Shown here: piece by piece, positions 13,765-32,736 of the stretch
Position numbering within the stretch: the first letter of the stretch is position 1
Layout: the number at the start of each line of letters is the position of its first letter
Assembly (NCBI RefSeq): GCF_008831305.1
Contig: NZ_ML708630.1
Location: 1 to 33,820 of the forward strand
Reading direction: 5' to 3'
Source of the DNA: Kocuria coralli
Lineage (GTDB): Bacteria > Actinomycetota > Actinomycetes > Actinomycetales > Micrococcaceae
DNA length: 33,820 nucleotides
Made by a program: the position numbers and the translations under genes
The notes under the pieces: generated by a model
Databases searched by the model: none
What the model was told of the DNA's origin: nothing
What the model saw: only the letters and a program-made list of their open reading frames with translations

Positions 13765-14748
13765 TCAGGAAGCCGCGAGGAGAGTGTCCACCGCGCGGGT
13801 GATAGCACTCTTGGCGCTGCTCTCGGCTTCACGGACGGAGTCCGTGGGAGGCCGTCGCCGTACGACTTCCAACAGCTGGGTATCGCTGAACTCTGACGGG
13901 TGCATAGCCAATTCGGGATCTCCGAGCTGGCAGGCCAAGGCGCTGATCTTATGGGTGGGACGAAGTGATAACGAGGGGATTCCATACCTGCTTGCTACGA
14001 CAGCTCCGTGGAATTTGGCGCTGAATAGACAGCGGTAACCACTGATGGCACGCATAAGATCCTCGATCGAATCCGCGGTCCGGAAAGGCACTCGCGGTAG
14101 CTCCGACCGGAGCCCTTCGATCTCCCGCTGCCTCTCGGCACCCGTAGCCAGGACAAGCAGCTCCATAGTGACTCCGTGGGCCTCTCCCCACGTCAAGAGC
14201 CGTCTCACGACTCGTCGGTCCTCCTCGCTCGGCACCTTTCGCAGGACGATGCCCATCCGGTCGTCCCGCGGCGGAACGGGCGCAGGAAGATCCGTGGCAA
14301 ACCCCAGGTCCGCGGAGACCCCAACGGGCCGTGCGGGGTCCAGGTGCTCGCGGAGCCACGCTGCGCTCGCCCCGTCACGGGCTCCGATGGACCGCACCAT
14401 CTCTGAAGAGAAGAACGTGGTGAGGCGTTCCAGGACGTCGCTCCGTTCTCGGCGTCTTTCCAGCGCGACGCCGATTCCTTCGATGACGATCGGCTTCTGA
14501 AGCCAGGAGCGGTTCCAGTACAGGGGGGAGATGGCGTCCGGGTGGACCAGGTCGCCGCCACCGATGACCAAGGCGTCGAATCGGCGGGCGACGGAGTCGG
14601 CCGGTTCCTCGAAGTACGGTCTGTGAAGCAACGTGTTCACTTTGCGGGCGATGGCTGACCCTGCGAAGGCATCCGACCAGCAGCGCAGCATCAGTTCGTC
14701 CCCGAAGTTGCCCCACCCGAAGAACCCGATGAGGCCGACGCGTTTCAT
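13765..14748 (-). CDS. Polysaccharide pyruvyl transferase family protein
   Basis: A complete 327-residue enzyme. It opens MKRVGLIGFFGWGNFGDELM, carries DALVIGGGDLVHPDAISPLY, and ends its catalytic part with LFSAKFHGAVVASRYGIPSL, which contains the conserved HG. These are the markers of CsaB-like transferases that place ketal pyruvate on a sugar using phosphoenolpyruvate. Its ATG overlaps the stop of the giant upstream gene (ATGA at 14745-14748), so translation is coupled. It is the paralogue of the rightward gene at 2567-3580; the two are similar along their whole length, including a shared IGARD segment. Different acceptor sugars for the two copies are likely but not shown. Confidence 0.9.
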   Translation of the reverse strand: MKRVGLIGFFGWGNFGDELMLRCWSDAFAGSAIARKVNTLLHRPYFEEPADSVARRFDALVIGGGDLVHPDAISPLYWNRSWLQKPIVIEGIGVALERRRERSDVLERLTTFFSSEMVRSIGARDGASAAWLREHLDPARPVGVSADLGFATDLPAPVPPRDDRMGIVLRKVPSEEDRRVVRRLLTWGEAHGVTMELLVLATGAERQREIEGLRSELPRVPFRTADSIEDLMRAISGYRCLFSAKFHGAVVASRYGIPSLSLRPTHKISALACQLGDPELAMHPSEFSDTQLLEVVRRRPPTDSVREAESSAKSAITRAVDTLLAAS

Positions 14749-17700
14749 GGCTGCCCCTCAGCCCGCACCTGCAGACGATTGGCCTGGGGATCGCCGTCGA
14801 AGTGAGAGCAGGCATAGTCGATCCAGCTGCGGATTCTCCTCGGCGTCGGGGGATTCGTCCCCTTGCAGTGATGCTCGAGGACGAAGGCCACTCGGTCACC
14901 TGTCACATTCTGGAAGGGAATCATGTGCTTGCGCATGTTCGGCTCATCGCCTGTGTTCTGTATGAACCAGGCACGGCCGCCGGTGTACTGCCGGTATAGC
15001 GAGGAGAGGTCGACTCGCCCGGGCTGGTCGCGGGCGAGGTCGGCCACGGTGTCATATCCGGGGAAAGCCGACTCGATGAGCGTCTTGGCCGGCCCACCTT
15101 GTGCGTATGGCCGGATGTCCGTCTGAGGCGAGAAGGCAACGGCTAGGGAATCCTTGATCCTGGGGGCCAGGGAGAGGGCGGCGAAGCCGCCAGCGGAAGC
15201 CCCCGTCAGGATGACCTTGGACGCCCCCAGCTGCCGGGCTGCCTCCTGTATCATCCCGGCAATTCGCTCCGGCACTACTTCTTCAGTTGTCCCGGCGTAC
15301 CAGCCCACCCGCAGGTTGGGTGACGCGTAGAGCGTGGGGTCGGCCAGGAACAGGACGTGATGGGGGAGGTCACGAAATTCCTGAAAACGTTCGAAGTATG
15401 GCAACCCATGTTTTTTCCGGTCGAGCGTGCCGTGCAGCGGAACCACGAGAGTGTCGGAGGCATCTCGGCGCAGGAGCAACGAGTTCATCGGAAGCGACGC
15501 CCCAGAGGGGTCGGCGATGGTGTGCCGAACCGAGGCTGCCGTATTCAGGAAGTCCGGAACCTCCGATGGACGCCATCTCAACTCCGGGAGATCTTCTACA
15601 GTCTCCGCCACATGCCGGCCCGGGGCGCCCTTTGGATTCCCGCGAGGCACCGCAGACCCGGCGTCGGCAGCACGGACGGCTCTCAGGACGTCGGCCTTGA
15701 CCATGGGATTGTGACCGGCGACAGCGTCCTCATAGTGGTGGATGCAGAGACCCTCCGTCAGAGTCGGGTGCTCCCTCATGAAGCTCTCCACCTGTGGCAG
15801 ATCCACCACCCGGTCGTGATCGGAAGCCACATTGACCCAGTAGTCGATCCGAGCGGGCTTCTTCCTGTGCTTCCACAGCTGCAGCACGCTGGTTCGGGTC
15901 GGGTACTGGCTACGGATGGTGGCCGGCAGGATGCCGTCGAACCTGGCAGCTCGCAGCTCGTTGACGGCGCCGGCCATCCACCGCGTCCAGTCGATCTGGG
16001 CATTGTTCACGACGGCCCGCGAGCCCGTATCGAGGATCGCAGCGGACCAGGCCCAGAAGCCACCGGCCGAGGATCCGAAATAAGTGCGCTGTTCAGCTGA
16101 CTGGGCACCGAGCACGGATGCCAGCAGACGCACGGCCTCCACGGTGGCCGGAACGGCGGTGACGTCCCGGGAGACCTGGCCCCACGCGAGGCTCAAGGCC
16201 TCCGGTCCGATCGTTCCTGGATCGGCCACGTAGATCTGCGACCACGGGATGTCCTGCCACCAGGTCGAGCGCTGGAATACGGGTTGCCCCTGGGAGCGCT
16301 CGAGGTCTACGGCGCCGTTGAACAGGGTGATCACTCTGGCGTCTTCCGTCGGCTCGCGGCGCACCACCAGCAGGGGGACGAGACAGTCGCCCAGGTCCAC
16401 ATCCAGGCGGGTGGGTTCGTCCAGGGGGAAGAACTCAGCCAGCAGCGTGCCGAGATCAGCGGGGGCCAAGCACGGAGGATCGGCGTTGTACTGGGGACGG
16501 GTTGACCGAGGGGCGTCGAGCGCAACACAGGTCTGTCCGGCGGGGTCTTTGGCTTCGAAGACGATGTCCTCGATCTGAGCGCGGCTGGCGTTCGACCATG
16601 AAGCGGTGGCATGCCGGTCCACCAGAGCCATGACGGCGACAGAGACGATGGAACCCGCCCGCAGATCCGTGACCGTGACGTGCACCGGGGCCTTGGAGAT
16701 GCCTCCGTCCCAGCTGGTGTGCATGCGGCCGTCGACCCAGACCTGGCACCTCCAATGGCCGGCGGCTGCGGCATATCCGTAGGTGGAGCTCAAGGTGAAA
16801 CGCAGTTCGCCGTCCTGCGCAGTGGGCTCGAAAACGCGATGCGCGGCGCTGGCCGGAAGGAAATGCTCCTGGGGGATGATCAGCTGCGCACCCTTCGCGG
16901 CGAGCAGCTCATGGCCCTGGGGGCCCCTGATCTCCAGGTGACCCTGCAGAGGCAGTCCGGTCGGCGATCCCGCGCCGTCGCCCCCTTTGTCCCGGGTGAT
17001 CTCGTAGAGATTGCGGTAATCATTGAATCCGGGGAAATTCAACGGCGGGGCGGCGCTGTTGATGAGTTCCGAGTAGAAGAAACTGGAATGCCGTTGTTCC
17101 AGAGGGAAGGACAGGGTGAGCTCCAGCAGAGCCCTCACATTCATGGTGGCGCAGGTCTCGAAGGCGATATCGGTCTCGTTGCAGATCTCCGCGGACCAGC
17201 GCCCCAGGCGGACCTCCCAGTAGAAGAGGTCTTTCCGGTGCAGGCCGTGCAGATCTCCGTCGTAGCCCCAGCGTTCATAACCGGCTCGGAAGTCCTCCTG
17301 GCGCTGGGCATCGGGGATGTCGTCGTCGTCTTTGCCGGTGCGTATCGAGCGCTCCTGCTCCAGAGCCTCGAAGGAGTCCTCGTCCCTTTTCCTGGTCCAG
17401 GGGCTCTTGCCGACCGCCGCGGCGTTGCCGCGCAGGTGGATCACGTGGTCCTCGGGGAAGGCCTGCAGGTAATGCGGCAGAAGCCACCTGCCGTGCTTGA
17501 CCAGCGCATTGGTGGCCATGTGCTCCCGCTGGCCGGGGGTCAGGCGGAGCTTTGGTTCGTCGGTGTAGAAGTAGGTGTGCGAAACCGGCGGTATAAGTTG
17601 CAGGAGCTGCTCGACGAGGGTCCTGTCCCGGACCAGTGAGCGTTGCAGTTTGGTGCTCTTCCTGGTCACCGTGGCTTTCGTCGAATAGGTGAACAGCGCC

Positions 17701-18455
17701 AGCCGGTCCAGGTGCTCCAGCGACAGCGCCAGCCCGGTCCGGCTGTCCCAACCCCCTGTGATGGACATGATCAGCCGGGCATCGAGGGCGACGAGGTCGC
17801 GCATCATCCGTTCCCAGCGGGTACGGAATAGATCCACCCTCTCCTGGACGCTCAGATGCGCGTACGGGTTCTCCCGGCGCGGGTAGAAGCGCTCGATGGA
17901 CCACGTGCCGAGCTCCAGCGAGTGGTTGGGCAGCAGCGCCTCCACCCCCAGCCGCGGTGTGCGACCCCACATGGTCAGAAAGCTCGCCAACCCCTGCTCG
18001 GGGGTGCGCAGCGGATGCGGCTGCAGGCGGTTGACCAGCTCCACGTGGCTGGCCACCACATCGGCAGTCTCGGAGAAGTGCACCGTCCTCATCCCGGTGG
18101 CGTCCTGGTAGAGCACGGGAGCACGATCCCCGGGCCCACCGCGGAGGATGATGTAGCGACCTCCATAGAGGTCGAGCTGCTCCAGGAAGGCCTCCTCGGA
18201 GCGCCCGAGGGCTTCCACCAGACGCTCCGAGGGCGTCAGCTCGCGAACGTCGTCACCCGCGTAGAGCAGCAGACCGTAGCTCAGCACCCATTCGCCGTCC
18301 TCGCCGACCGCCAAGGAGGGCTCCACCGCGGGGTCGTGAGAGAAGAACCAACCTGAGCCCTGCAAGGCCAACGTCAGCCAGCCGGTCGGCACCTCCAGTG
18401 CATCACCCGTGCGTAGGAGCGCGAATCCGCGGGGGAACAGGCGGGAAGCGGCCAC
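14745..18455 (-). CDS. Giant multidomain protein: asparagine-synthetase-like module plus two tandem alpha/beta-hydrolase modules
   Basis: A protein of 1236 residues from GTG 18455, chosen because gagagaag lies just upstream; a GTG at 18494 would add 13 residues without a ribosome-binding site. Residues 1-180 resemble the N-terminal half of an asparagine synthetase with no catalytic Cys2; residues about 181-475 hold the PP-loop IMSITGGWDSR (229-239), where Trp replaces the usual Lys/Val. Residues about 507-637 look like a beta-sandwich. Two hydrolase modules follow: elbow YFGSSAGGFW (Ser796) with Asp879/881 and His915 in AGHNP, and elbow LTGASAGGFAAL (Ser1087). The second module matches the stand-alone rightward hydrolase. 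It may form an amide or acyl link on the glycan and also trim or transfer acyl groups. It is the second gene of the leftward operon. Confidence 0.78.
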   Translation of the reverse strand: MAASRLFPRGFALLRTGDALEVPTGWLTLALQGSGWFFSHDPAVEPSLAVGEDGEWVLSYGLLLYAGDDVRELTPSERLVEALGRSEEAFLEQLDLYGGRYIILRGGPGDRAPVLYQDATGMRTVHFSETADVVASHVELVNRLQPHPLRTPEQGLASFLTMWGRTPRLGVEALLPNHSLELGTWSIERFYPRRENPYAHLSVQERVDLFRTRWERMMRDLVALDARLIMSITGGWDSRTGLALSLEHLDRLALFTYSTKATVTRKSTKLQRSLVRDRTLVEQLLQLIPPVSHTYFYTDEPKLRLTPGQREHMATNALVKHGRWLLPHYLQAFPEDHVIHLRGNAAAVGKSPWTRKRDEDSFEALEQERSIRTGKDDDDIPDAQRQEDFRAGYERWGYDGDLHGLHRKDLFYWEVRLGRWSAEICNETDIAFETCATMNVRALLELTLSFPLEQRHSSFFYSELINSAAPPLNFPGFNDYRNLYEITRDKGGDGAGSPTGLPLQGHLEIRGPQGHELLAAKGAQLIIPQEHFLPASAAHRVFEPTAQDGELRFTLSSTYGYAAAAGHWRCQVWVDGRMHTSWDGGISKAPVHVTVTDLRAGSIVSVAVMALVDRHATASWSNASRAQIEDIVFEAKDPAGQTCVALDAPRSTRPQYNADPPCLAPADLGTLLAEFFPLDEPTRLDVDLGDCLVPLLVVRREPTEDARVITLFNGAVDLERSQGQPVFQRSTWWQDIPWSQIYVADPGTIGPEALSLAWGQVSRDVTAVPATVEAVRLLASVLGAQSAEQRTYFGSSAGGFWAWSAAILDTGSRAVVNNAQIDWTRWMAGAVNELRAARFDGILPATIRSQYPTRTSVLQLWKHRKKPARIDYWVNVASDHDRVVDLPQVESFMREHPTLTEGLCIHHYEDAVAGHNPMVKADVLRAVRAADAGSAVPRGNPKGAPGRHVAETVEDLPELRWRPSEVPDFLNTAASVRHTIADPSGASLPMNSLLLRRDASDTLVVPLHGTLDRKKHGLPYFERFQEFRDLPHHVLFLADPTLYASPNLRVGWYAGTTEEVVPERIAGMIQEAARQLGASKVILTGASAGGFAALSLAPRIKDSLAVAFSPQTDIRPYAQGGPAKTLIESAFPGYDTVADLARDQPGRVDLSSLYRQYTGGRAWFIQNTGDEPNMRKHMIPFQNVTGDRVAFVLEHHCKGTNPPTPRRIRSWIDYACSHFDGDPQANRLQVRAEGQP

Positions 18456-18470
18456 AGATCTTCTCTCACT

Positions 18471-18478
18471 GGGGGGGG
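18471..18478. repeat. Homopolymer tract G8 (C8 in the transcript)
   Basis: Eight consecutive G residues on the + strand lie 16 bases upstream of the preferred start of the giant leftward gene and just before its ribosome-binding site. The tract would also shift the frame between the upstream GTG (18494) and the gene if it changed length. Such tracts are prone to slippage. Confidence 0.6.
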
Positions 18479-18526
18479 TGGGTCGGCCGAGCACGGCACG
18501 ACAGGGGAGGGTGCGCTGGCGCGGGG

Positions 18527-19800: not shown

Positions 19801-20487
19801 TCAGAGCTCAACCATGCCGGCCCGGTGAGCTGCGATGACCAGCTGCAACCTGTCCCGGACCCCGAACTTGCTCACCAGGTGAGTCACATGCTGTTTCACG
19901 GATTTCTCGGTGATTCCGAGCGTGTCGGCGATCTCCTTGTTGCGGCATCCCGTGGCCAGGTGCCGCAGCACCTCCGCCTCCCGAGTGGTGAGGGTGACGG
20001 CCGGGGGCAGTTCGTCACGCCTGTCGGATTCCCGCAGGTGCCCGACGACGGCGTCCAGGGCCGTGGGGGAGAGCTCCGTCTTCCCGGAGACGGCTCGGCG
20101 GACGGTGGTCAGGATCCTCTCGGGGGGATCCGACTTCAGCACGTAGCCCAGCGCCCCGGCACGGAGTGCGGGCACGACGGCGTCCGCGGTGGTGAATGTG
20201 GTGATCATGACCACCTGGGTGGCAGGCAGGATGCGCAGCAGCTCGGCGGTGGCCTCCACCCCGTCCACCCGGGGCATCTGGATGTCCATCAGCACGATGT
20301 CCGGTCGGAGGTTCGCCGCCATCTGCACCGCCCCGCGGCCGTCGGCGGCGGTTCCCACCACTTCCATGTCGCCGGCACTGGCCAGGTACACGGACAGCGT
20401 CTCGCGGACCACGGCCTCGTCGTCGGCGATCAGGACCCGGTACGGGCGGCCGGTAGCACCCGTACGGGCACCAGGATGTCTGCTCAA
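19801..20487 (-). CDS. NarL/FixJ-type response regulator
   Basis: A 228-residue two-component regulator. The receiver domain has the acidic pair in LIADDEA (Asp22, Asp23), the phosphoacceptor Asp68 in VLMDIQMPRVDG, a Thr switch in VMITTFT and the conserved Lys in GYVLKSD. After a linker, a LuxR-type helix-turn-helix covers TLTTREAEVLRHLATG and KEIADTLGITEKSVKQHVTHL near residues 160-205. The start appears to be TTG at 20487; no better ATG or GTG lies before the receiver domain. It is divergent from the peptide-kinase pair, 189 bases away, and should be its partner. It ends 113 bases upstream of the epimerase start on the same strand, so readthrough or direct control of the glycan operon is possible. 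Confidence 0.93.
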   Translation of the reverse strand: MSRHPGARTGATGRPYRVLIADDEAVVRETLSVYLASAGDMEVVGTAADGRGAVQMAANLRPDIVLMDIQMPRVDGVEATAELLRILPATQVVMITTFTTADAVVPALRAGALGYVLKSDPPERILTTVRRAVSGKTELSPTALDAVVGHLRESDRRDELPPAVTLTTREAEVLRHLATGCRNKEIADTLGITEKSVKQHVTHLVSKFGVRDRLQLVIAAHRAGMVEL

Positions 20488-20676
20488 GGGAACCGCCTAT
20501 ACTGCCGAGTCCGTTAAATCTTGTGGCTTTCATGACACGATGACGGATTCCTCCGCACAAGTCGCCAGTTTGAGAATATCCTGGATACGTGCGGAATGGA
20601 TCCTGACTCCCCAGGTCAGGCGTCCTGCTTGCTCCGCGCATCCCCCCGCCCCGTCTCGCATCCTGCAGGAGTACCA
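20488..20676. promoter_or_regulatory. Divergent promoter region of the two-component system
   Basis: The 189 bases between the response regulator and the peptide gene must hold promoters for both directions. A TATACT hexamer at 20498-20503 on the + strand looks like a -10 box but has no matching -35 box. The region is noticeably AT-richer than its flanks around 20510-20530. Autoregulation by the response regulator would be expected to act here. Confidence 0.4.
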
Positions 20677-20883
20677 ATGCCGATTCTCAACCGCTCTCGA
20701 AAAGCCGCAGCCGCAGCCGCCATCGCCGGGTCCATGTTCCTCAGTGGAAGCCTGGCGACGGTCGCGATTGCACCCTCCATCGGGGCTGCCCCCGCACCGG
20801 CCCAGACCACCTCCGTGGTCAAGGCCGAGCCCGGCGTGTTCGTCAGCCTGCTGTGCCTCTACTACGGGCGCTGCTCGAGGTAA
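20677..20883 (+). CDS. Small secreted peptide with C-terminal cysteine pair, candidate signal precursor
   Basis: A 68-residue peptide beginning at ATG 20677, preceded by AGGAG at 20667-20671 with a 5-base spacing, the strongest site in the area; an in-frame ATG at 20596 lacks one. Residues 1-10 are basic, 11-38 hydrophobic and Ala-rich, then an Ala-Pro segment (GAAPAPAQ) ends in a likely signal-peptidase site after Ala42. The mature part would be about 26 residues, ending FVSLLCLYYGRCSR with Cys60 and Cys66 six positions apart, suited to a disulfide ring. Its TAA (20881-20883) is one base before the GTG of the kinase, so the two are translationally coupled. Nothing in it looks enzymatic. I infer a ligand, or a small membrane or secreted modulator, for the adjoining kinase. 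Confidence 0.68.
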   Translation: MPILNRSRKAAAAAAIAGSMFLSGSLATVAIAPSIGAAPAPAQTTSVVKAEPGVFVSLLCLYYGRCSR

Positions 20884-20884
20884 T

Positions 20885-22207
20885 GTGACGCCCGATTCAT
20901 CCGACGTGGGTCCGTGGACCGCGATTCAGCGCCGCTGGCCTGAACTGCGGGTCACGGACCCACTACCTGTTCCCGCGCTCCTCCGCGTCGGTCTCAGCGT
21001 GGTCGTCGCCATGCTGTGCCTTTTCGACGTACTGCAGTTCACCATCACCGGTATCCATGTCTCGCAATCGCCTGGAACCGATCCCTGGATGGAGGTCCTG
21101 GGTACCGTTGGCGGCACCTATCTGCCCATACTGGGCACGCTGGCCGGGCCCCGACTGGGCATCAGCACACTGGTCTTCGCCTACGCCCTGGCGCTGATGA
21201 CGCAGTCGACCTATGCCGTGTTCGTGCCAGGTGTCCTGTGCACCCTCGTTCTCACCATGTGGCTGCGCTGGGGCGTGGGCCTGACGGTCCTCGGCGCTCA
21301 GTGGCTCGCCGCCCTTGGCCTGGGAATCTTCGTCACCGAAACAGATGCATGGGCCGAGGTCGTCGCGCTGTGGGCACTACTCAGCTTCGGCGCGCTCCTC
21401 GGTTTCACCACGCGGTTCTTCCGATGCCGCACACTCCTATCCGCGCGCACCATCGCCCGCCTGGAGCACGATGCCGCCCTGGTGCGCGCCGCAGAACGAC
21501 AAGAACTGGCCCGTGAACTGCATGATCTGGTCGCCCACAACGTCACGGCCACCGCGCTGCGCGCCAATGCAGGATTGCTCTCCCAGGACGCGGACATGCA
21601 GCGCACGGCGCTGAGGGATATCGCCAACGGCGCCAGCGGGACCATCGCCGACCTGCGCAGGCTGGTCAGCATCCTGCGCGAGGAACCCGTGGGCATCTCG
21701 GCCACCCGGATCTCCCCGCTCGACGGATCGAGTCAGTCCGCCGACTCCTCCAAGCCCGCCCCGCCCACACCCACGATGTCCATGGTTCTGCAGAACAGCG
21801 TGCAGATCCTGCGGGACTCCGGCTTCAGGAACATCGAGGTCCAGGAAGGACCGGACTGGGAGTACGTCACCACCTCGGTCCGCAGCGCCTGCCAGCGGGT
21901 GGTCCAGGAGGCCTGCGCCAATATCGTCCGCCACGGTTCGCCCGCCGGTCCCGTCTCCATCCGCGTGGAGATCGTCAGAAACCGCGCCCGCGGTCCGCGC
22001 GCGGAGGTGGAGGTCTCCAACAAACTCGCCCACGCCCGCCGTCGTGAGGTCTCCACGCCGGCGGCGGTACTGAGCACCGGCGGATTCGGTTTGCTGGGCC
22101 TCCGGGAACGCGTGTCGGTCTTCGGCGGCGAGCTGACCAGCGGGCCCAGAGAGGGCCGCTGGATCGTCCACGCACGGCTGCCCCTGCAGGAGATCGATCT
22201 GCCCTAG
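20885..22207 (+). CDS. NarL-family membrane sensor histidine kinase
   Basis: A 440-residue kinase starting at GTG 20885; the frame is open far upstream but that part overlaps the peptide and regulator genes. Residues about 31-178 hold five or six hydrophobic segments with only short loops, so there is no large external sensor domain. A coiled stretch leads to the HisKA_3 dimerisation helix RQELARELHDLVAHNVTATA, with phosphoacceptor His213. The ATPase domain has the N-box QEACANIVRH (341-350) and the G-box GGFGLLGLRERV (399-410). The usual Asp-x-Gly-x-Gly box between them is not visible; the corresponding strand reads VEVSNKLAHA. It is co-transcribed with the small peptide and would phosphorylate the divergent NarL-type regulator. 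Confidence 0.92.
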   Translation: MTPDSSDVGPWTAIQRRWPELRVTDPLPVPALLRVGLSVVVAMLCLFDVLQFTITGIHVSQSPGTDPWMEVLGTVGGTYLPILGTLAGPRLGISTLVFAYALALMTQSTYAVFVPGVLCTLVLTMWLRWGVGLTVLGAQWLAALGLGIFVTETDAWAEVVALWALLSFGALLGFTTRFFRCRTLLSARTIARLEHDAALVRAAERQELARELHDLVAHNVTATALRANAGLLSQDADMQRTALRDIANGASGTIADLRRLVSILREEPVGISATRISPLDGSSQSADSSKPAPPTPTMSMVLQNSVQILRDSGFRNIEVQEGPDWEYVTTSVRSACQRVVQEACANIVRHGSPAGPVSIRVEIVRNRARGPRAEVEVSNKLAHARRREVSTPAAVLSTGGFGLLGLRERVSVFGGELTSGPREGRWIVHARLPLQEIDLP

Positions 22208-22364: not shown

Positions 22365-23030
22365 GTGAAACTCGGACACCGCCCAGAGCACTCCAGGATC
22401 CATTTCAAAGTCCAAGACGCCACTGGACTGAACATGGTCCTCAGCCGGGACGTGCTCCGGCGTACCTACGCGGCCGTCAAAGAGCTGTGCCGCCACTTCT
22501 GCGAGACCGCGGCCGATTCGGATGGGAACGCACTGTCGATCTCGTTCATCGAATCGCAAAGCGGAGACATCGTCTTCATCGTGGACGATCTGGGTGAGCT
22601 CTCATCCGCGTCTCACCACAGGCTGCGCAGATTCCATCGGGACTCCCCCTCCTCGGACGGCATTCGACTCGCCGCTCAAGCGGCCATGCGGAATACGGTG
22701 TTCCTGGCTCAAGCGACCATGTTCGCGTTCGAGTTCGGGGGAGTACGGCCCGTTCCCGCATCCCAAGACGGTCTCGTGGACCTGGTGTCCGAGGAGACCT
22801 CCCAGCGCCTCCGCGTTCCCGCCGAGGTGGCCCGTGCATTGCTTGATCCCGACATGCAGGACACCATGCGCGAGTTCTTCGCGGCGATCGGCGAGCAGGG
22901 CGCAGCGTCGATCGTGATCGGCCTGGACCCCGATACCCCGGAGCGCCGACTCGAATTCCTGATCCCCGCGATCGATGACGTCATTGACTTCGTCGACGGC
23001 GCGCCGCTGCCTGTCCAAGGACCTGCCTGA
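22365..23030 (+). CDS. Protein of unknown function (221 residues)
   Basis: I do not recognise the family. GTG 22365 is preceded by aaggtg at a 9-base spacing; the ATG just upstream (22357) runs into a stop after three codons. The protein is soluble, without signal peptide or membrane segments. It alternates strands and helices: IHFKVQDATG, a helix SRDVLRRTYAAVKELCRHF, then LSISFIESQSGDIVFIVDDL, a second helical stretch RLAAQAAMRNTVFLAQATM, and a C-terminal half with LLDPDMQDTMREFFAAIGE and ASIVIGLDPDTPE. It is convergent with another unrecognised gene of similar size and layout. Transcription is rightward after the kinase, separated by 157 bases, so it probably has its own promoter. Confidence 0.75.
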   Translation: MKLGHRPEHSRIHFKVQDATGLNMVLSRDVLRRTYAAVKELCRHFCETAADSDGNALSISFIESQSGDIVFIVDDLGELSSASHHRLRRFHRDSPSSDGIRLAAQAAMRNTVFLAQATMFAFEFGGVRPVPASQDGLVDLVSEETSQRLRVPAEVARALLDPDMQDTMREFFAAIGEQGAASIVIGLDPDTPERRLEFLIPAIDDVIDFVDGAPLPVQGPA

Positions 23031-23074: not shown

Positions 23075-23854
23075 TCAGTCCAGAGGGCCCATGCCCGAGA
23101 TGCCGGTCCCGAAAACCTGCCGCCGTTGCGTGCTGGTCATCAGTTCCCGTAGAGGGGCGTCGTCGAAGATCGCTTTGGCCAACAGCACCTCGAAATCGGA
23201 ACTCTTCACCTGCTGATGGAACTCCTCCGTCAGATCCAGGACGATCTCGTGCCTCCTGTTCGGGCACGTGGGGTCGCGCACCACGACGATGGTCTTGAGG
23301 TCCGGTAGGAGAAAGCTGGTCAGCATCTGCCGGGACGCCGCGGCAACCTCCGGGACGGAGAAGAAGAGTGTGAACACCAGAACCGGAATCCTGAAGGTGC
23401 GACGCTCGTCGATGACCACGGTGCAGAAACCGTCGTCGTCGCCTTTGGAGCTGACCCGGATGCTCTTCGCAACGACCAGAGGAGGAACGCTCTGGATGGT
23501 CGCGGCGAGCATTTCCGCGCCCTTGCGCAGCCACATGTGAGCCGCTTGACGCTTGGCCTCCGGCACGGGAAGCAGAAACCGCCAGACGGCCGACCTGGGG
23601 TCCATGGCCACCAGCTGGATGGTGTACGTGCCCGGCACGGGGCTCTGGTAGTTGACCGCGATCTGGGGCAACCGGTCGCCCATGTCCTGATCTTGGACCA
23701 TCAGCGAAACACTATGATTCAACATGGAAAGCATGCCACGGCGGGTGGCTTGCAGAACGGCTTCGGAGGGAACGAAGGGGCCATTCTTCCCCTCCAATCG
23801 AACCTCTACATCCACGTGGGTGATCAGCGCTTCACCTCGTCGCGGCAGACTCAT
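23075..23854 (-). CDS. Protein of unknown function (259 residues)
   Basis: The family is not recognised. ATG 23854 has a strong gagaggag ribosome-binding site seven bases upstream. The protein is soluble, with no signal peptide or membrane helix. Its start (HVDVEVRLEGKNG followed by a helix SEAVLQATRRGMLSMLN) has the same strand-then-helix order as the convergent gene at 22365-23030, and both end in an acidic helix of the type ELMTSTQR or EFFAAIGE; a distant relationship is possible but cannot be shown by eye. Three strand-rich segments (TIQLVAMD, FCTVVIDERR, TIVVVRD) suggest a beta-rich core. A CTCACTG-spaced TATACT box lies about 100 bases upstream. Confidence 0.75.
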   Translation of the reverse strand: MSLPRRGEALITHVDVEVRLEGKNGPFVPSEAVLQATRRGMLSMLNHSVSLMVQDQDMGDRLPQIAVNYQSPVPGTYTIQLVAMDPRSAVWRFLLPVPEAKRQAAHMWLRKGAEMLAATIQSVPPLVVAKSIRVSSKGDDDGFCTVVIDERRTFRIPVLVFTLFFSVPEVAAASRQMLTSFLLPDLKTIVVVRDPTCPNRRHEIVLDLTEEFHQQVKSSDFEVLLAKAIFDDAPLRELMTSTQRRQVFGTGISGMGPLD

Positions 23855-27192: not shown

Positions 27193-29922
27193 TCACGAGC
27201 GGGCGCATGCCTGGATGCGCACGAGCCGCCGCCGTTCGTCCAGCTGCTCGGCGAGCAGTCTGCGCAGAGCCCCCGGGGCGTCCCCATGGTGCTTCAGCCA
27301 GGCCTCCGTCGAGCGGACGACGGCGTCGCCCGCTCCCTCTGAGTCCGCTCCCTCTGAGTCCGCTTCCTCCGACTGTGCCGCGGACTCGCAGGCCCGGGGG
27401 TAGAGGCCGGTGACCACGCGGGTGGCCATGCCGATCGACCGGGTCGCCCACTGCCCGGCGAGCACGGCGAAGTACCGGTCCCGGTAGGGCTCGAGCAACG
27501 ACGGTTCCCCCAGCTGGAACCCCATGATGGTGGCGGTCAGCAGATCGTTCGACAGCTCCGCCCCCAGGATCTCCTCCCAGGCGGCCTCCTTGGCCTCCTG
27601 GGTAGGACGTGACGCCAGCGTCCGGGCGCGCCCGATCTGCGCCTCACGGGAGGCGTCTCGCTGGGACTCCAGGGCGATCCACGAATCCCCGGCGTGTCCG
27701 GAGGCCACCAGCCCGGTCAGCAGCCGCCAGCGGAGGGCGGGGCCCAGGCGCAGACCGGGGAGGGCCTCGGTGCCGCGCAGAAGGGCCTCCGCCCACTGCG
27801 CATACGTGCCGTCACGGGCCAGCAGGTGCCCGAAGGTGCGGGCCAGGGCGGTCTGCTCGTCCGAACCGGGGGCGGCGGCACGCAGTCGTGTGACCACGAA
27901 GTCGGTGAGCTGCCGGCGGCGCTCCGGGCGGTGGCGCTGCGGCAGGTAGTGCTCCAGCGCCTCGAGCGCCCGTTCCAGGGCGGTCTCGAAGATCACGGAC
28001 TCCGTCTCCCGCCCGATGTGGTGGATCACCGCGCCGATGTAGTCGTCCGGATCCAGCCGGGCGTCGCGGACCATGGACCACAGGTGGCTCCACGCCACGG
28101 CTCGGGCCATCGGCTGCGGCAGATCGCCGAGGTGCTCCAGCAGCCCGGCGGCACCGTCCGGGTCCAGGCGGTACTGGGCGTAGTCGAGGTCGTCGTCGTT
28201 GACCAGGACCAGACCAGCGCTCCCGACCAGGCCGGGGAGGTCGATGGCACGGCCGGGCTCATGGCCGGCCGGGATGTCGACGCCGATCCGGCGGGAACGC
28301 TCCAGGTCCCCTCGACGGGAGGCGGGACTATGGGACGCGGAATCGTGGGACGCGGAATCGTGGGATGCGGGGGAGTACAGGCCCACCGCCAGGTGGTGCG
28401 CCCGCGCCGAGGAGGGGTCCTGGGCAGTGCCCTGAGGGATCAGCGCGGCTCGTGTGATGGGCGAGGCGATGCCCGTCGCCTCGCGCTCGATCACCACGTC
28501 GATCTCCGTGGCGTTGGTGGTGCTCAGCCAGTCCCGGGCCCACGCCCGGGTGTCCCGGGCAGAGGATTCCTCCAGCACGGCCAGGAAGTCCGCCAGCTCC
28601 GCCGAACCCCATGCGTGGCGGCGGAAGTAGAGACGGCAGGCCTCCACGAAGGCCTCGATCCCCACGAAGGCGACCAGCTGCTTGAGCGCGGCTGCGCCCT
28701 TGGCATAGGTGATGCCGTCGAAGTTCTGCTTGGCCGCCGCGACGTCGGGGACATCCGCCACGATCGGGTGCGTCGTGCTCAGGGCGTCCTGCCGGTAGGC
28801 CCATGCCTTGCGCCGGACGGCGAATCCGGCCCACGCACTCCTGAACTCCGTGGCCTCCGCCGAGGCGTAGGCGCCCATGAACTCCGCGAAGGACTCCTTG
28901 AGCCACAGGTCCTCCCACCACCGGATGGTGACCAGGTCCCCGAAGTACATGTGCGCCATCTCGTGCAGCACGGTGTTGGCCCGGCCCGCGCGTTGCTGGG
29001 CGGTGGGACCGTCCGGGAAGAGGTAGTCCTCCGTCAGGGTCACCAGCCCGGGGTTCTCCATCGCCCCCAGGTTGTACTCGGGCACGAAAGCCTGCCCGTA
29101 GGAGCCGAAGGGCAGCTCGAGGTCGAACAGGTCCGTGTAGAAGTCCAGGCCGGCGCGGGTGAGGTCGAACAACTCCTCCGCCGGCAGGTGCCGGGCCATG
29201 GAGGCGCGGCACCACAGCGTCAGCGGCAGCGTCTGGTTCCGGCCCTTGGTGCTGCTGGTCCAGACGCTGTCCACCCGGTGGTACGGGCCCGCCAGCACGG
29301 CCGTGAGGTAGCTGGGGATCGGAGTGGTGGCGGTGAACCGGTGCAGGAGGCCCTGCCCGTCCTCGGGGACGCGGGGCGCAGCGGCCCCGGCCGCTGCGCT
29401 CTCGCCCGCCGGGGCCGGGAGCGCGTTGGAGGCGACCGACCATCCCCGCGGTGCGGTGATGGTGAACGTCCACGGGCAACGCAGGTCCGGCTGATCGAAG
29501 CACGGCACCACACGACGGGCATCCGTGGGCTCGTACTGGGTGTACAGGTACGTGGCGCCGTCCTCCGGGTCGGTATAACGGTGCAGGCCCTCACCGGAGC
29601 GGGAGTAGTACCCGCTGCCCTCGACCACCACCGTGTTGCGCTCCCGGAGCCCGGTGAGCTCGATCCTCCCGGGGCTCACGGCTTTCGCGAGCGCCTCCTC
29701 GCTCACGGCGGTGCCGTTGATCTCCAAACGATGGACGTCGCCGATGAAATCGAGGAAGGAGGAGGCTGCCGCGCAGGTGAAGTCCCAGCGGATACGGACC
29801 GGGAAGGTGGCGATCGCCGGATCGGGAGCCCCCGTCAGGTCGAGCTCCACCTCGGCTCCCTGCAGGGTCAGGGACCGGGAGCGAGCAGCGGCGTCCGCAC
29901 GGGTGAGATCGTAGTGAGACAC
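27193..29922 (-). CDS. pepN: Aminopeptidase N (M1 family zinc metallopeptidase)
   Basis: A cytoplasmic peptidase that removes N-terminal residues. From GTG 29922 it has 909 residues and opens with SHYDLTRADAAAR, the usual start of actinobacterial PepN; the frame runs on to a GTG at 29994, but those 24 extra residues are Arg/Pro-rich and unlike the family. In the 909-residue count the exopeptidase signature GAMEN is at 286-290 and the zinc site HEMAH at 320-324 with the third ligand Glu343 in LWLKESFAEF. The C-terminal ERAP-like helical domain is complete. Two short in-frame tandem repeats (27331-27375 and 28331-28370) encode Ser/Asp/Ala-rich loops that are not part of the conserved fold. Confidence 0.95.
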   Translation of the reverse strand: MSHYDLTRADAAARSRSLTLQGAEVELDLTGAPDPAIATFPVRIRWDFTCAAASSFLDFIGDVHRLEINGTAVSEEALAKAVSPGRIELTGLRERNTVVVEGSGYYSRSGEGLHRYTDPEDGATYLYTQYEPTDARRVVPCFDQPDLRCPWTFTITAPRGWSVASNALPAPAGESAAAGAAAPRVPEDGQGLLHRFTATTPIPSYLTAVLAGPYHRVDSVWTSSTKGRNQTLPLTLWCRASMARHLPAEELFDLTRAGLDFYTDLFDLELPFGSYGQAFVPEYNLGAMENPGLVTLTEDYLFPDGPTAQQRAGRANTVLHEMAHMYFGDLVTIRWWEDLWLKESFAEFMGAYASAEATEFRSAWAGFAVRRKAWAYRQDALSTTHPIVADVPDVAAAKQNFDGITYAKGAAALKQLVAFVGIEAFVEACRLYFRRHAWGSAELADFLAVLEESSARDTRAWARDWLSTTNATEIDVVIEREATGIASPITRAALIPQGTAQDPSSARAHHLAVGLYSPASHDSASHDSASHSPASRRGDLERSRRIGVDIPAGHEPGRAIDLPGLVGSAGLVLVNDDDLDYAQYRLDPDGAAGLLEHLGDLPQPMARAVAWSHLWSMVRDARLDPDDYIGAVIHHIGRETESVIFETALERALEALEHYLPQRHRPERRRQLTDFVVTRLRAAAPGSDEQTALARTFGHLLARDGTYAQWAEALLRGTEALPGLRLGPALRWRLLTGLVASGHAGDSWIALESQRDASREAQIGRARTLASRPTQEAKEAAWEEILGAELSNDLLTATIMGFQLGEPSLLEPYRDRYFAVLAGQWATRSIGMATRVVTGLYPRACESAAQSEEADSEGADSEGAGDAVVRSTEAWLKHHGDAPGALRRLLAEQLDERRRLVRIQACARS
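27331..27375 (-). repeat. 15-bp tandem repeat in pepN, about 2.7 copies
   Basis: cgctccctctgagtc occurs at 27331-27345 and 27346-27360 exactly, with a degenerate third copy to 27375. In frame it encodes a repeated Asp-Ser-Glu-Gly-Ala unit near the C-terminus. Confidence 0.85.
28331..28370 (-). repeat. 15-bp tandem repeat in pepN, about 2.7 copies
   Basis: tgggacgcggaatcg occurs at 28331-28345 and 28346-28360 exactly, with a partial third copy. In frame it encodes repeated His-Asp-Ser-Ala-Ser units in a surface loop of the protein. Confidence 0.85.
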
Positions 29923-30196
29923 CGTCCCAGTGTAGGAACCCGATCCGGTTCGCGGCGATCGCCGGCCCGGCGCGCGGCGCGAACGCGGTAACACCCGTGA
30001 ACAGAATCCGCGGAGCCTTAGGATCTCAGCAGGATCTTCCGTGTGCGCCCCATCACGAAATGGTCCCGCAACACATCTGCGCCAGGCTTATGCGCGGTCA
30101 TCCGCAAGACCAGCCGAGCGAACCGCACAGTTCGCGTGACCGGGGCTTTCGGGCTCGCGCCCGGGACCGACAATCGAAGGGAAGTGATCCACCAGC

Positions 30197-31807
30197 ATGA
30201 CGGATCTGTTCGCCTCCTACGCCCACGACATGGCCGGGTCGGGAGCGTACGACGAGATGTTCACCGACCAGCACAACGTTCGTTCGGCTTTCCATCGCGT
30301 CTCGGACGTGCTCAGTTCGCTGGACCTGAGCGACGTCACCTCCCGCGACGAGTCCATGGCCCGCTCCTTCCTGGACCGCGGGGTCACCTTCGACTTCGCC
30401 GGCGAGGAGCGCCCGTTCCCCCTCGACATCGTTCCCCGTGTGCTCACGATGGGCGAATGGGAGGTGATCGAACGCGGTGTGAAACAGCGGGTCAGGGCCC
30501 TGGAACTGTTCCTGGACGACGTCTACGGCGAGCAGAAGATGATCGACGACGGCATCGTGCCCCGCTCCCTGATCACCTCGTCGGCCCATTTCCACCGCAC
30601 CGTCTGGGGCTTCAAGCCCGTGGGCGGGGTGCGGATCCACGTGGCGGGCATCGACGTCGTCCGCGACAATGACGGCGTCTTCCGGGTGCTCGAGGACAAC
30701 GTCCGGGTGCCCTCCGGGGTCTCCTACGTGCTCGAGAACCGGCGGGCCATGATGAAGGGCCTGCCGGAGGCCTTCATGTCCACGCCGATCATGCCCGTGG
30801 ACTCCTACCCCCGCCACCTGCTGCACGCCCTCAAGGCGACGGCCCCCGAGCCGGGCGAGGACGCCGTCGTCGTGGTCCTGACGCCGGGTGTCTTCAACTC
30901 CGCCTATTTCGAGCACACCCTGCTGGCGGGGCTGATGGGCGTGGAGCTGGTGGAGGGGCGCGACCTCGTGGTGCGCGGTGACCGCGTGTACATGCGCACC
31001 ACCGAAGGCGAACAGCGCGTGGACGTGATCTACAAGCGCATCGACGACGACTTCACGGACCCGCTGCAGCTGCTGCCGGATTCCGTGCTGGGCTGCCCGG
31101 GGCTGGTGAACGCCGCCCGGGCGGGCAACGTGACCATCGCCAATGCCATCGGCAACGGCGTGGCCGACGACAAGCTGGTCTACTCCTACGTTCCCGAGCT
31201 GATCCGCTATTACCTGGACGAGGAACCCATCCTGCCCAACGTGGATACCTACCGTCTGGAAGAGGACGAGGCCCGCGAGTACGTCCTCGCCCACCTGGAG
31301 GAGCTGGTGGTCAAGCCCGTGGACGGCTCGGGCGGCAAGGGCATCGTGATCGGCCCGCATGCCACGCCCGAGGAGCTGGAGGAGCTGCGGGCCAAGGTCC
31401 TGGCCGACCCGCGCGGCTGGATCGCCCAGCCGGTGCTGCAGCTGTCCACCGTCCCCACCTTCGACGGCGAGGGGTTCAGCCCTCGGCACGTTGACCTGCG
31501 CCCGTTCTGCGTGAACTCGGGTGAGGACATGTTCGTCCTGCCCGGCGGGCTCACCAGGGTGGCCATGACCAAGGGGTCGCTGATCGTGAACTCCTCGCAG
31601 GGCGGCGGGTCCAAGGACACCTGGGTGGTCGGCAACCGGTACGCCCCGGTGCACCGCAATCCCGAAGCCGAGGAGAAGGTGGCCTCCATGGCCTCCTTCC
31701 CGGTCTCCGGGCACTGGGCCGACGACGCCGACCTGGCCGACCAGATGCAACAGCAACAACAGCAGGCCAGCCGAGGCCGGGCCGGAGAGGAGCAGGGCGC
31801 ATGCTGA
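30197..31807 (+). CDS. Circularly permuted type 2 ATP-grasp protein
   Basis: A 536-residue member of the CP_ATPgrasp_2 family (formerly DUF404/DUF407). The conserved N-terminal block includes FPLDIVPRVLTMGEWEVIE and the GIDVVRDNDGVFRVLEDN region, and PSGVSYVLENR follows; the permuted ATP-binding part appears near residue 370 as LVVKPVDGSGGKGIVIG and further on as WIAQPVLQLS and HVDLRPF. Such enzymes are predicted to ligate an amine to a carboxylate with ATP, possibly making a peptide tag, but no substrate is known to me. ATG 30197 follows gaaggga. The last seven bases (ATGCTGA, 31801-31807) also contain the start of the next gene, so the two are coupled. Confidence 0.93.
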   Translation: MTDLFASYAHDMAGSGAYDEMFTDQHNVRSAFHRVSDVLSSLDLSDVTSRDESMARSFLDRGVTFDFAGEERPFPLDIVPRVLTMGEWEVIERGVKQRVRALELFLDDVYGEQKMIDDGIVPRSLITSSAHFHRTVWGFKPVGGVRIHVAGIDVVRDNDGVFRVLEDNVRVPSGVSYVLENRRAMMKGLPEAFMSTPIMPVDSYPRHLLHALKATAPEPGEDAVVVVLTPGVFNSAYFEHTLLAGLMGVELVEGRDLVVRGDRVYMRTTEGEQRVDVIYKRIDDDFTDPLQLLPDSVLGCPGLVNAARAGNVTIANAIGNGVADDKLVYSYVPELIRYYLDEEPILPNVDTYRLEEDEAREYVLAHLEELVVKPVDGSGGKGIVIGPHATPEELEELRAKVLADPRGWIAQPVLQLSTVPTFDGEGFSPRHVDLRPFCVNSGEDMFVLPGGLTRVAMTKGSLIVNSSQGGGSKDTWVVGNRYAPVHRNPEAEEKVASMASFPVSGHWADDADLADQMQQQQQQASRGRAGEEQGAC

Positions 31808-32736
31808 GCCGCATTGCAGAATCGTTGTTCTGGATCGGGCGCTACATGGAACGCGCCGACGGGGTCTCCAGGATCCTGGACGTCCATCTCGAGCGCATCA
31901 CCCAGCTGCCGGAGGCGGAGCAGTCGCAGGAGCTGCGCCGCATCATGGACGTGATGGGAGCACCCTCGACCGACGAGAACCCCGATGTGGGCGTGCTCAT
32001 CCACGAACTCGCGTGGAACCGCCAGTCCAAGACCTCGATTGCGGGCTCCGTCAACGCCGCCCGTGAGAACGCGCGCCGGGCCCGGGAGATCGTCTCCTCC
32101 AAGATGTGGGAGGCCGTGAACTCGACCTACTACGGCCTCAACCAGCACCGGCACGATGTGGTGGGCACCTTCCGCATGTGCCAGTGGGCCGCGGAGCGCA
32201 TCTCCACCATCCGGGGCCAGGCGGAGATGACGATGTCCCACGACCAGTCCTGGCAGTTCCTGACCCTGGGGGTCACCCTGGAGCGGGCGGATATGACGGC
32301 CCGTCTCCTGTGGACCCGCACCTCTGGGCTGTCGCCGTCGGCGGAGACCTCCTGGGTGGACATCCTGCACTGCGCCGGCGCCTACGAGGCGTTCCTGCGC
32401 ACCAGGAACGGGTCCTTCAACGACGAGTCCGCCGTGCGCTTCCTGCTGCTGGACCGCCTGTTCCCGCGCTCGATCATCTACTCGCTGACCCACGCCGAGC
32501 GCATCCTCGAGGCGCTGGACCCCGGCTCCCGGCGGATGGGCTTCACCAATGACGCCCGCCGGATCATCGGCCGGGCCCGGGCCGAACTGGAGTTCCTGAA
32601 CTCGGAGAACATCACCCGCGAGCTGCCGAAGCATCTCAACGAGGTGCAGGCCGCCGTGGCCAGCACCGCCGAGTTCGTGACCGACAAGTACTTCACGCAC
32701 GAGCAGGAATCGTCTTGGTTTGGAGGGGTACTGTGA
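31801..32736 (+). CDS. Alpha-E domain protein
   Basis: A 311-residue, almost wholly helical protein of the alpha-E family (formerly DUF403). It begins with the typical MLSRIAESLFWIGRYMERA and shows the conserved NxxxARExARRAR helix, read here as NAARENARRAREI, plus a LLLDRLFPRSI segment later. The family is nearly always encoded between the circularly permuted ATP-grasp and transglutaminase-like genes and is thought to form a complex with them, but no activity is assigned. It overlaps the upstream gene by seven bases and the downstream gene by four, so all three are translated together. Confidence 0.92.
   Translation: MLSRIAESLFWIGRYMERADGVSRILDVHLERITQLPEAEQSQELRRIMDVMGAPSTDENPDVGVLIHELAWNRQSKTSIAGSVNAARENARRAREIVSSKMWEAVNSTYYGLNQHRHDVVGTFRMCQWAAERISTIRGQAEMTMSHDQSWQFLTLGVTLERADMTARLLWTRTSGLSPSAETSWVDILHCAGAYEAFLRTRNGSFNDESAVRFLLLDRLFPRSIIYSLTHAERILEALDPGSRRMGFTNDARRIIGRARAELEFLNSENITRELPKHLNEVQAAVASTAEFVTDKYFTHEQESSWFGGVL

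Follow-up and report, generated by a model that had tools for sequence, protein, structure and literature searches.

What is encoded between a NarL-type response regulator and the sensor histidine kinase that is transcribed away from it in Kocuria coralli, and does it work with the pair? The locus lies in a stretch of 33,820 nucleotides, all of which was analyzed and which we call the window. The analysis revealed a three-gene unit in which the regulator on the minus strand is followed by a divergent region of 189 nucleotides, an open reading frame (ORF) of 68 amino acids and the gene for a kinase of 440 amino acids. The encoded peptide, MPILNRSRKAAAAAAIAGSMFLSGSLATVAIAPSIGAAPAPAQTTSVVKAEPGVFVSLLCLYYGRCSR, consists of a basic N-terminus, a hydrophobic segment, a Pro/Ala linker and a C-terminus with Cys60-x5-Cys66. 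A single base, 20884, separates its stop codon from the GTG start of the kinase at 20885. A preliminary description of this DNA had laid out the same gene plan (a Sec-type ORF of 68 residues, a ribosome-binding site, Cys60 and Cys66, and a one-base gap to the kinase), which proved exact to the base, and the divergent partner that it had assigned to the kinase is indeed a regulator of the NarL type. A longer peptide gene starting at the ATG at 20596 (95 amino acids) was rejected because the start codon and AGGAG common to five close copies are those of the ORF that begins at 20677.

Table 1 Positions of the peptide–kinase locus and of neighboring genes in the window
Feature	Position	Strand	Basis or remark
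1249-aa protein	14745–18494	−	No Pfam match
Partner response regulator, NarL/LuxR type	19801–20487	−	Response_reg and GerE domains
Divergent intergenic region, presumed shared control region	20488–20676		Position
AGAATATCCT block, candidate promoter or regulator site	20573–20582	+	Invariant in 5/5 close copies (alignment)
Ribosome-binding site AGGAG of peptide	20667–20671	+	AGGAG before start also in 5/5 close copies
Peptide precursor, 68 aa	20677–20883	+	ATG 20677, stop TAA 20881–20883; C-terminal VFVSLLCLYYGRCSR
Predicted Sec signal peptide	20677–20787	+	Proposed cleavage after Ala37 (SIGA/APAP); rule-based, exact site a guess
C-terminal Cys60-x5-Cys66 segment, proposed disulfide ring	20854–20874	+	Sequence; Cys pair in 5/5 close copies
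Sensor histidine kinase (HisKA_3, HATPase) with about six predicted membrane segments	20885–22207	+	GTG start, stop 22205–22207, 440 aa
Gene after kinase	22365–23030	+	No Pfam or NCBIfam match
Gene after kinase, convergent with the preceding	23075–23854	−	No Pfam or NCBIfam match
M1-family aminopeptidase	27193–29994	−	About 5 kb beyond kinase
Gene pair, circularly permuted ATP-grasp and Alpha-E domain	30197–32736	+	Unrelated to module

The close copies are five Kocuria loci (L002–L006), with L002 being the window's own. All five retain the start site, the AGGAG, the Cys pair and a junction composed of the stop codon, one nucleotide and GTG. Values of dN/dS for the peptide, calculated with our own Nei-Gojobori script, range from 0.11 to 0.27 in nine of the ten pairs; the tenth pair (L003–L006) is saturated and its ratio could not be computed. 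Between L004 and L005, the last 22 codons contain 11 synonymous changes and no non-synonymous change. The peptide frame is under purifying selection, and codon-level conservation had been proposed in the preliminary description as a check on it. Invariant blocks in the divergent regions are clade-specific; in another clade, the block GGACAAAGGT is found in 7 of 7 loci.

The kinase matches Pfam HisKA_3 (E 9e-12), and its best fold matches in the PDB are DesK structures, over the catalytic core only. An AlphaFold2 model (mean pLDDT 79, pTM 0.50) contains five membrane-length helices (residues 31–55, 67–87, 89–106, 110–124, and 127–148), and the start of a long helix that spans residues 155–232 is likely to be the sixth membrane segment. 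Hydropathy analysis gave six segments with no more than 23 residues between them, which together with the modeled helices upholds the earlier claim that the external loops are short. Among 59 of 60 peptide-bearing kinases (L188 was dropped as its motif was not found), hydropathy analysis gave six segments in 46, five in 12, and four in one; the gaps are at most 30 residues in 58 of the 59 and reach 56 residues in the remaining one. These short gaps between predicted segments indicate that the kinases have no large external sensor domain, or almost none. In each of the eight clades compared, the catalytic half is better conserved than the sensor half, which is usual for sensor kinases. In partial Mantel analysis, the peptide gave a value of 0.28 with the sensor half given the catalytic half and 0.32 with the catalytic half given the sensor half; since the two values are alike, they do not distinguish specific coevolution of peptide and sensor. 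The clade comparison and Mantel analysis leave out L213 and L028. A search of a plasmid collection with the window kinase gave no match.

The window thus combines a divergent NarL regulator, a Cys-pair peptide and a short-loop kinase, the three elements by which we define the module. Neither Pfam nor NCBIfam contains a family that matches the window peptide above cut-off; ten module peptides compared with both collections gave sub-threshold matches only, and a protein search of the window's own genome returned the peptide itself and nothing else.

When the window kinase was used as query, 28 related loci were recovered in 24 of 59 genomes. In 26 of these 28 Kocuria loci, a short ORF with a Cys pair at its end directly precedes the kinase gene, so that a further check proposed earlier, the search for a conserved Cys-pair peptide upstream of homologous kinases, found it in the same slot. 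The arrangement of peptide before kinase is more than chance. The two exceptions are L025, which has a more distant kinase, and L007, in which the kinase is 43% identical and the regulator divergent; the L007 kinase (also numbered L055, L276, and L164) belongs to the window's own clade. With loci from a family-wide search added, at least one module is present in 24 of 27 Kocuria genomes. The family-wide search itself matched at least 355 of 395 genomes, a figure that counts any NarL-type kinase. Six Kocuria genomes (G002, G003, G012, G015, G018, and G022) carry two modules with different peptides. At L008–L014, L019, L021, L023, L116, and L130, inspection by eye showed no clear Shine-Dalgarno sequence before the peptide start, and a −10-like TAAACT (TAAGCT in L021) lies shortly before the start codon, which suggests that transcripts in this Kocuria clade may be leaderless.

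How tightly the peptide is linked to a divergent regulator was determined with a strict rule that accepts an ORF of 38–125 amino acids with a basic residue, then a hydrophobic run, and C-x4..7-C no more than five residues from the stop. Among 161 NarL-kinase loci, the rule found a peptide in 57 of 70 with a divergent regulator versus 0 of 91 others; every locus with a strict-rule peptide has a divergent regulator. For this count, the duplicates L067, L074, L017, and L015 were removed, the near-duplicates L090/L181, L051/L053, and L086/L180 were kept, and L189 passed only by way of an over-long ORF, its true ORF being likely leaderless. Of the 91 peptide-free loci, 60 have a co-directional regulator downstream and one has it upstream; no regulator was found near the other 30. 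A looser reading adds L016, L101, and L188, bringing the divergent loci with a peptide to 60 of 70. No peptide was found in eight of the 70 (L007, L077, L083, L086, L088, L095, L132, and L180), and in L190 and L191 a Cys-less 15-mer occupies the slot. In these ten loci, we saw no convincing Sec-type ORF without a Cys pair either, and the ORFs that pass a loose segment test in L007, L077, and L132 look spurious. All of these counts describe the loci examined, a minority of the matches that the wider searches listed, which were chosen by kinase similarity and are mutually related, so that a Fisher P value calculated from them does not represent a true probability.

Several controls bear on this association. 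The eight other NarL-type kinases in the window's own genome have a co-directional regulator downstream, and none of the eight has a peptide. Three Kocuria genomes are without a module (G020, which is 76% complete, G021, and G026). All 14 of their kinases detected at E 1e-25 were examined (for L284, which lies close to the end of a contig, the slot was placed approximately); none has a peptide by the strict rule. One of the 14 (L276, the L007 locus) has a divergent regulator, and the 13 with a co-directional regulator gave 0 of 13 with a peptide. In a control of 80 loci, the strict rule found peptides in 11 of 16 Micrococcaceae and 0 of 64 others (mostly Streptomyces, Nocardia, and Rhodococcus); a twelfth Micrococcaceae locus, L101 of Nesterenkonia alkaliphila, has C-x9-C. 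L111, for which no upstream sequence was available, was scored as negative in both the 80-locus and the 161-locus counts. Over 1.35 Mb of strand the strict rule gave 21 matches, 11 of them the kinase peptides and 10 outside the kinase slot, which corresponds to a background of about 0.003 per slot of 450 nucleotides.

In a second set of 58 loci, a strict-rule peptide was present in 2 of 10 divergent loci (L210 and L211, both repeats) and in 0 of 48 among the non-divergent ones. Looser means were used to read the remaining eight divergent loci, L239 and L240 by eye because the rule had missed them. A looser rule required no signal; it accepted an ORF of 15–125 amino acids that begins with ATG or GTG, has C-x5..6-C close to its stop codon and an F, W, Y, or L within the ring, and follows a Shine-Dalgarno match of at least 4/6. 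Applied after nine duplicates had been dropped, it matched 42 of 73 divergent loci versus 3 of 147 others. One of the three, L078, is a strict-rule module with a second regulator on its other side; the other two look spurious.

In a phylogeny of 110 kinases (all 70 divergent ones and a random 40 of the 91 others), a fully supported branch parts 35 conventional kinases from the 70 divergent and five conventional ones. The tree was built by a quick method and has several long branches, so single placements are unsure; its topology is consistent with one origin of the divergent module and later losses. Kinases of one Micrococcaceae genus, g45 (L056–L062, L068, and L184), have a co-directional regulator and no peptide. 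Five of them were placed in the tree and fall inside the divergent clade, so a secondary loss accompanied by rearrangement may have occurred in this genus.

The same peptide plan, combined with different rings, occurs in Citricoccus, Micrococcus, Paeniglutamicibacter, Arthrobacter sp. C2, Glutamicibacter, and further genera. Rings outside Kocuria include FWCNWWGFFC, WLCKVFGIFCG, WFCRTYGAWCPR, WVCRNLGALCR, and WFCKNYGLACG. Among the matches listed, an order-wide search placed Sec-type peptides in at least three further families, with ends such as GRWACKRLGLFC (L182), DLNCFFFKRC (L183), DLMCVVLKKRC (L187), and MALCDLIPELCPPHLR (L185), and a class-wide search gave at least one case outside the order, L213, with YALCSYYPDWCGPQWQIPQK. 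We compared 58 Sec-type peptides, a set from which L181 and L188–L191 were dropped and to which L213 was added. Their spacing is C-x6-C in 46, C-x5-C in eight, C-x7-C in three, and C-x9-C in one. The 58 peptides contain 46 different rings, in which aromatic residues make up 34% of positions versus 5% of the linker; the L016 peptide failed the hydrophobic-run test, and its tail fits the plan. A strict A-x-A cleavage site was observed in 50 of 58, with 41.7 expected after the Ala-rich segments were shuffled, and a relaxed site in 58 of 58, with 57.1 expected. These signal-peptidase-like sites are weak evidence for cleavage, and the mature products predicted by rule are not uniform, ranging from 15 to 75 residues.

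Not all peptides in the slot have a signal segment. In family f19, short peptides that lack one, mostly behind a good ribosome-binding site, are DLGDWLCKMLGICA, DLGDWLCQMLGICA, DDPTWLCEVFGICD, FFEWLCQMFGICS (read by eye, its ribosome site unscored), FLDDLCRYLKICQ, and ALCKLLRACS; one f13 locus encodes the leaderless peptide FWTWLCEASGFCK. By eye, the f19 peptides and the f13 peptide have neither a signal nor a membrane segment. Some leaderless peptides share a WLCxxxGIC-like core that resembles the Sec-type WxCRxxGxxC of Micrococcaceae. At L190, L191, and L216, Cys-less peptides of 15 amino acids (MGIFYVFGKMIGIFR, MGIFYIFGKMIGIFR, and MPFWQQVGKFFGLVR) lie in the same slot behind strong ribosome sites and may represent another peptide chemistry on related kinases.

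The preliminary description had also set the unit beside a surface-glycan locus. This holds for the window's clade, in which the regulator is followed by wecB and by a relative of the large neighboring gene at 6 of 6 loci, the window included; one of the six (L164/L007) is peptide-free. It does not extend to any of the 15 other modules examined, in which the neighbors differ between clades. None of these 15 has relatives of window genes besides the kinase and regulator, and a glycan-specific role of the module was rejected on that ground. Surface-glycan genes may be a target in the window's clade; they do not define the module. The large neighboring gene, which encodes the 1249-amino-acid protein, stands in a row with wecB and genes resembling polysaccharide pyruvyl transferase; other loci of the clade contain related segments that vary in length. 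Relatives of the two convergent genes beyond the kinase are present in five of five and four of five clade loci examined, respectively. Those of the M1-family aminopeptidase are present in three of five; its proximity to the peptide gene is probably unrelated. No AgrB was detected when 15 window genes and the peptide were scanned against Pfam, and among the window genes scanned we recognized no dedicated maturation gene, transporter, immunity-like gene, or peptidase-ABC exporter.

The conserved slot, the purifying selection and the short kinase loops make a ligand or modulator of the kinase the best inference for the peptide. We consider it probable that the window holds one copy of a widespread actinobacterial peptide-signaling module in which an exported disulfide-ring pheromone is sensed by the co-encoded kinase. 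Gene order, selection on the frame, rings that differ from lineage to lineage and a sensor buried in the membrane all agree with this reading. Sec would export the precursor and signal peptidase would free it; a disulfide in its C-terminal C-x5..6-C segment would close an aromatic ring of seven or eight residues, the cognate ligand of the neighboring kinase. With about six segments and almost no external domain, the kinase would bind this ligand in the membrane or at its surface, in the manner of AgrC-like receptors. It would then phosphorylate, or stop phosphorylating, the divergent regulator, a response that could have either sign. The regulator would probably act on the shared control region, a form of autoregulation, and on other targets.

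Because cleavage sites are hardly above chance after the shuffling control, we moved some of the weight that we had given to such a pheromone to a modulator resembling MgrB. The peptide would then be anchored or cell-associated and hold the kinase in one state in cis; there would be no cell-to-cell signal, and the Cys pair may serve to report the redox state. In MgrB, a bitopic small protein that inhibits the kinase PhoQ, the two periplasmic cysteines are essential, and a redox-sensing disulfide between them has been proposed (PMC10576120). The Cys pair of the peptide, its one-base spacing to the kinase and the lack of a recognized maturation gene among the window genes scanned agree with such a modulator, but the C-termini vary strongly by lineage (46 rings in 58), and the f19 peptides and one f13 peptide show, by eye, neither a signal nor a membrane segment. 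We regard the modulator as rather unlikely, yet a serious contender. The pheromone reading is itself weakened by the peptide-free L007/L055/L276 locus in the window's own clade, by the other peptide-free divergent loci and by the Cys-less peptides; nor did the analysis reveal any sign of control by cell density.

Many bacteriocins are their own inducers, and the ring peptide could be a small bacteriocin for which the kinase–regulator pair induces immunity in the producer. Its aromatic rings often bear Arg or Lys, and one module peptide matches the lactococcin 972 model over the signal region, at a sub-threshold 12.5 bits (cut-off 32.1). This explanation is improbable, however, given that the window genes scanned include no recognized transporter or immunity-like gene, that neighbors differ between clades and that no Pfam or NCBIfam match exceeds the cut-off. 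Finally, the one-base gap from stop to start in five of five close copies would suit a non-coding or leader ORF relevant only to translational coupling with the kinase. Purifying selection at the amino-acid level (dN/dS 0.11–0.27, with Cys pair and start site kept) contradicts such a reading, and the same architecture recurs far outside Kocuria; we give it almost no credence.

If the ring pheromone is extended beyond the window, we lean slightly toward the view that many Actinomycetes use an unrecognized peptide language, in which each lineage has a private disulfide ring and a co-encoded NarL-type kinase, parallel channels operate in one cell, and no dedicated maturation enzyme is needed beyond Sec and oxidative folding, with some families leaderless. 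Peptide-based quorum sensing is a familiar trait of Firmicutes. Quorum sensing has been reported in 25 of 342 actinobacterial genera, nine of them with experimental evidence, and the part of that source cited here mentions Kocuria only for LuxR homologs (PMC4748050). A literature search, incomplete in journal coverage and without bioRxiv preprints, returned no description of the peptide–kinase family. A module whose precursors, receptors and regulators are defined in many genomes would allow peptide communication in actinobacteria to be tested directly with short synthetic peptides, and orthogonal ligand–receptor pairs could come from it. Should the MgrB-like modulator prove true, the peptides would still form a large and new family of small proteins that regulate kinases.

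Peptide–kinase signaling as such is already known; what appears to be unrecognized is this peptide family. The agr system produces a cyclic, hydrophobic, lineage-specific thiolactone from the AgrD precursor, which is encoded beside AgrC, an HPK10 kinase with small external loops that acts with a LytTR regulator. The module resembles it in that a short precursor lies beside a polytopic kinase with small external loops, and its proposed signal would likewise be cyclic, hydrophobic and specific to each lineage. It differs in its HisKA_3 kinase and NarL-type (GerE) regulator, which are not of the HPK10/LytTR type, in its Sec-type precursor and divergent gene order, and in that no AgrB-type protease gene is present among the window genes scanned. 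The second Cys, retained in five of five close copies, suggests a disulfide rather than the agr thiolactone. ComC/Blp-type and RRNPP systems share with the module a ribosomally made precursor linked to a receptor gene. Unlike the former, the module peptide has a Sec-like segment in place of a double-glycine leader, and the window genes scanned include no peptidase-ABC exporter; unlike the latter, its candidate receptor is a membrane kinase and not a cytoplasmic TPR protein.

The likeness to MgrB and PhoQ lies in a small protein with a Cys pair, which in MgrB is essential and acts on a histidine kinase and in the module, whose peptide has a hydrophobic segment, would do so. MgrB itself is bitopic in the membrane, and the periplasmic domain of its target PhoQ has a PAS fold (PMC10576120). 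In the module, by contrast, the C-termini vary by lineage, the peptide gene precedes the kinase gene and the kinase has no large external domain. With DesK–DesR the module shares the HisKA_3 catalytic core and a NarL-like regulator, which place it among systems of the NarL/DesK type. Within that type, the peptide gene sets the module apart from the 91 NarL/HisKA_3 loci in which the regulator is not divergent.
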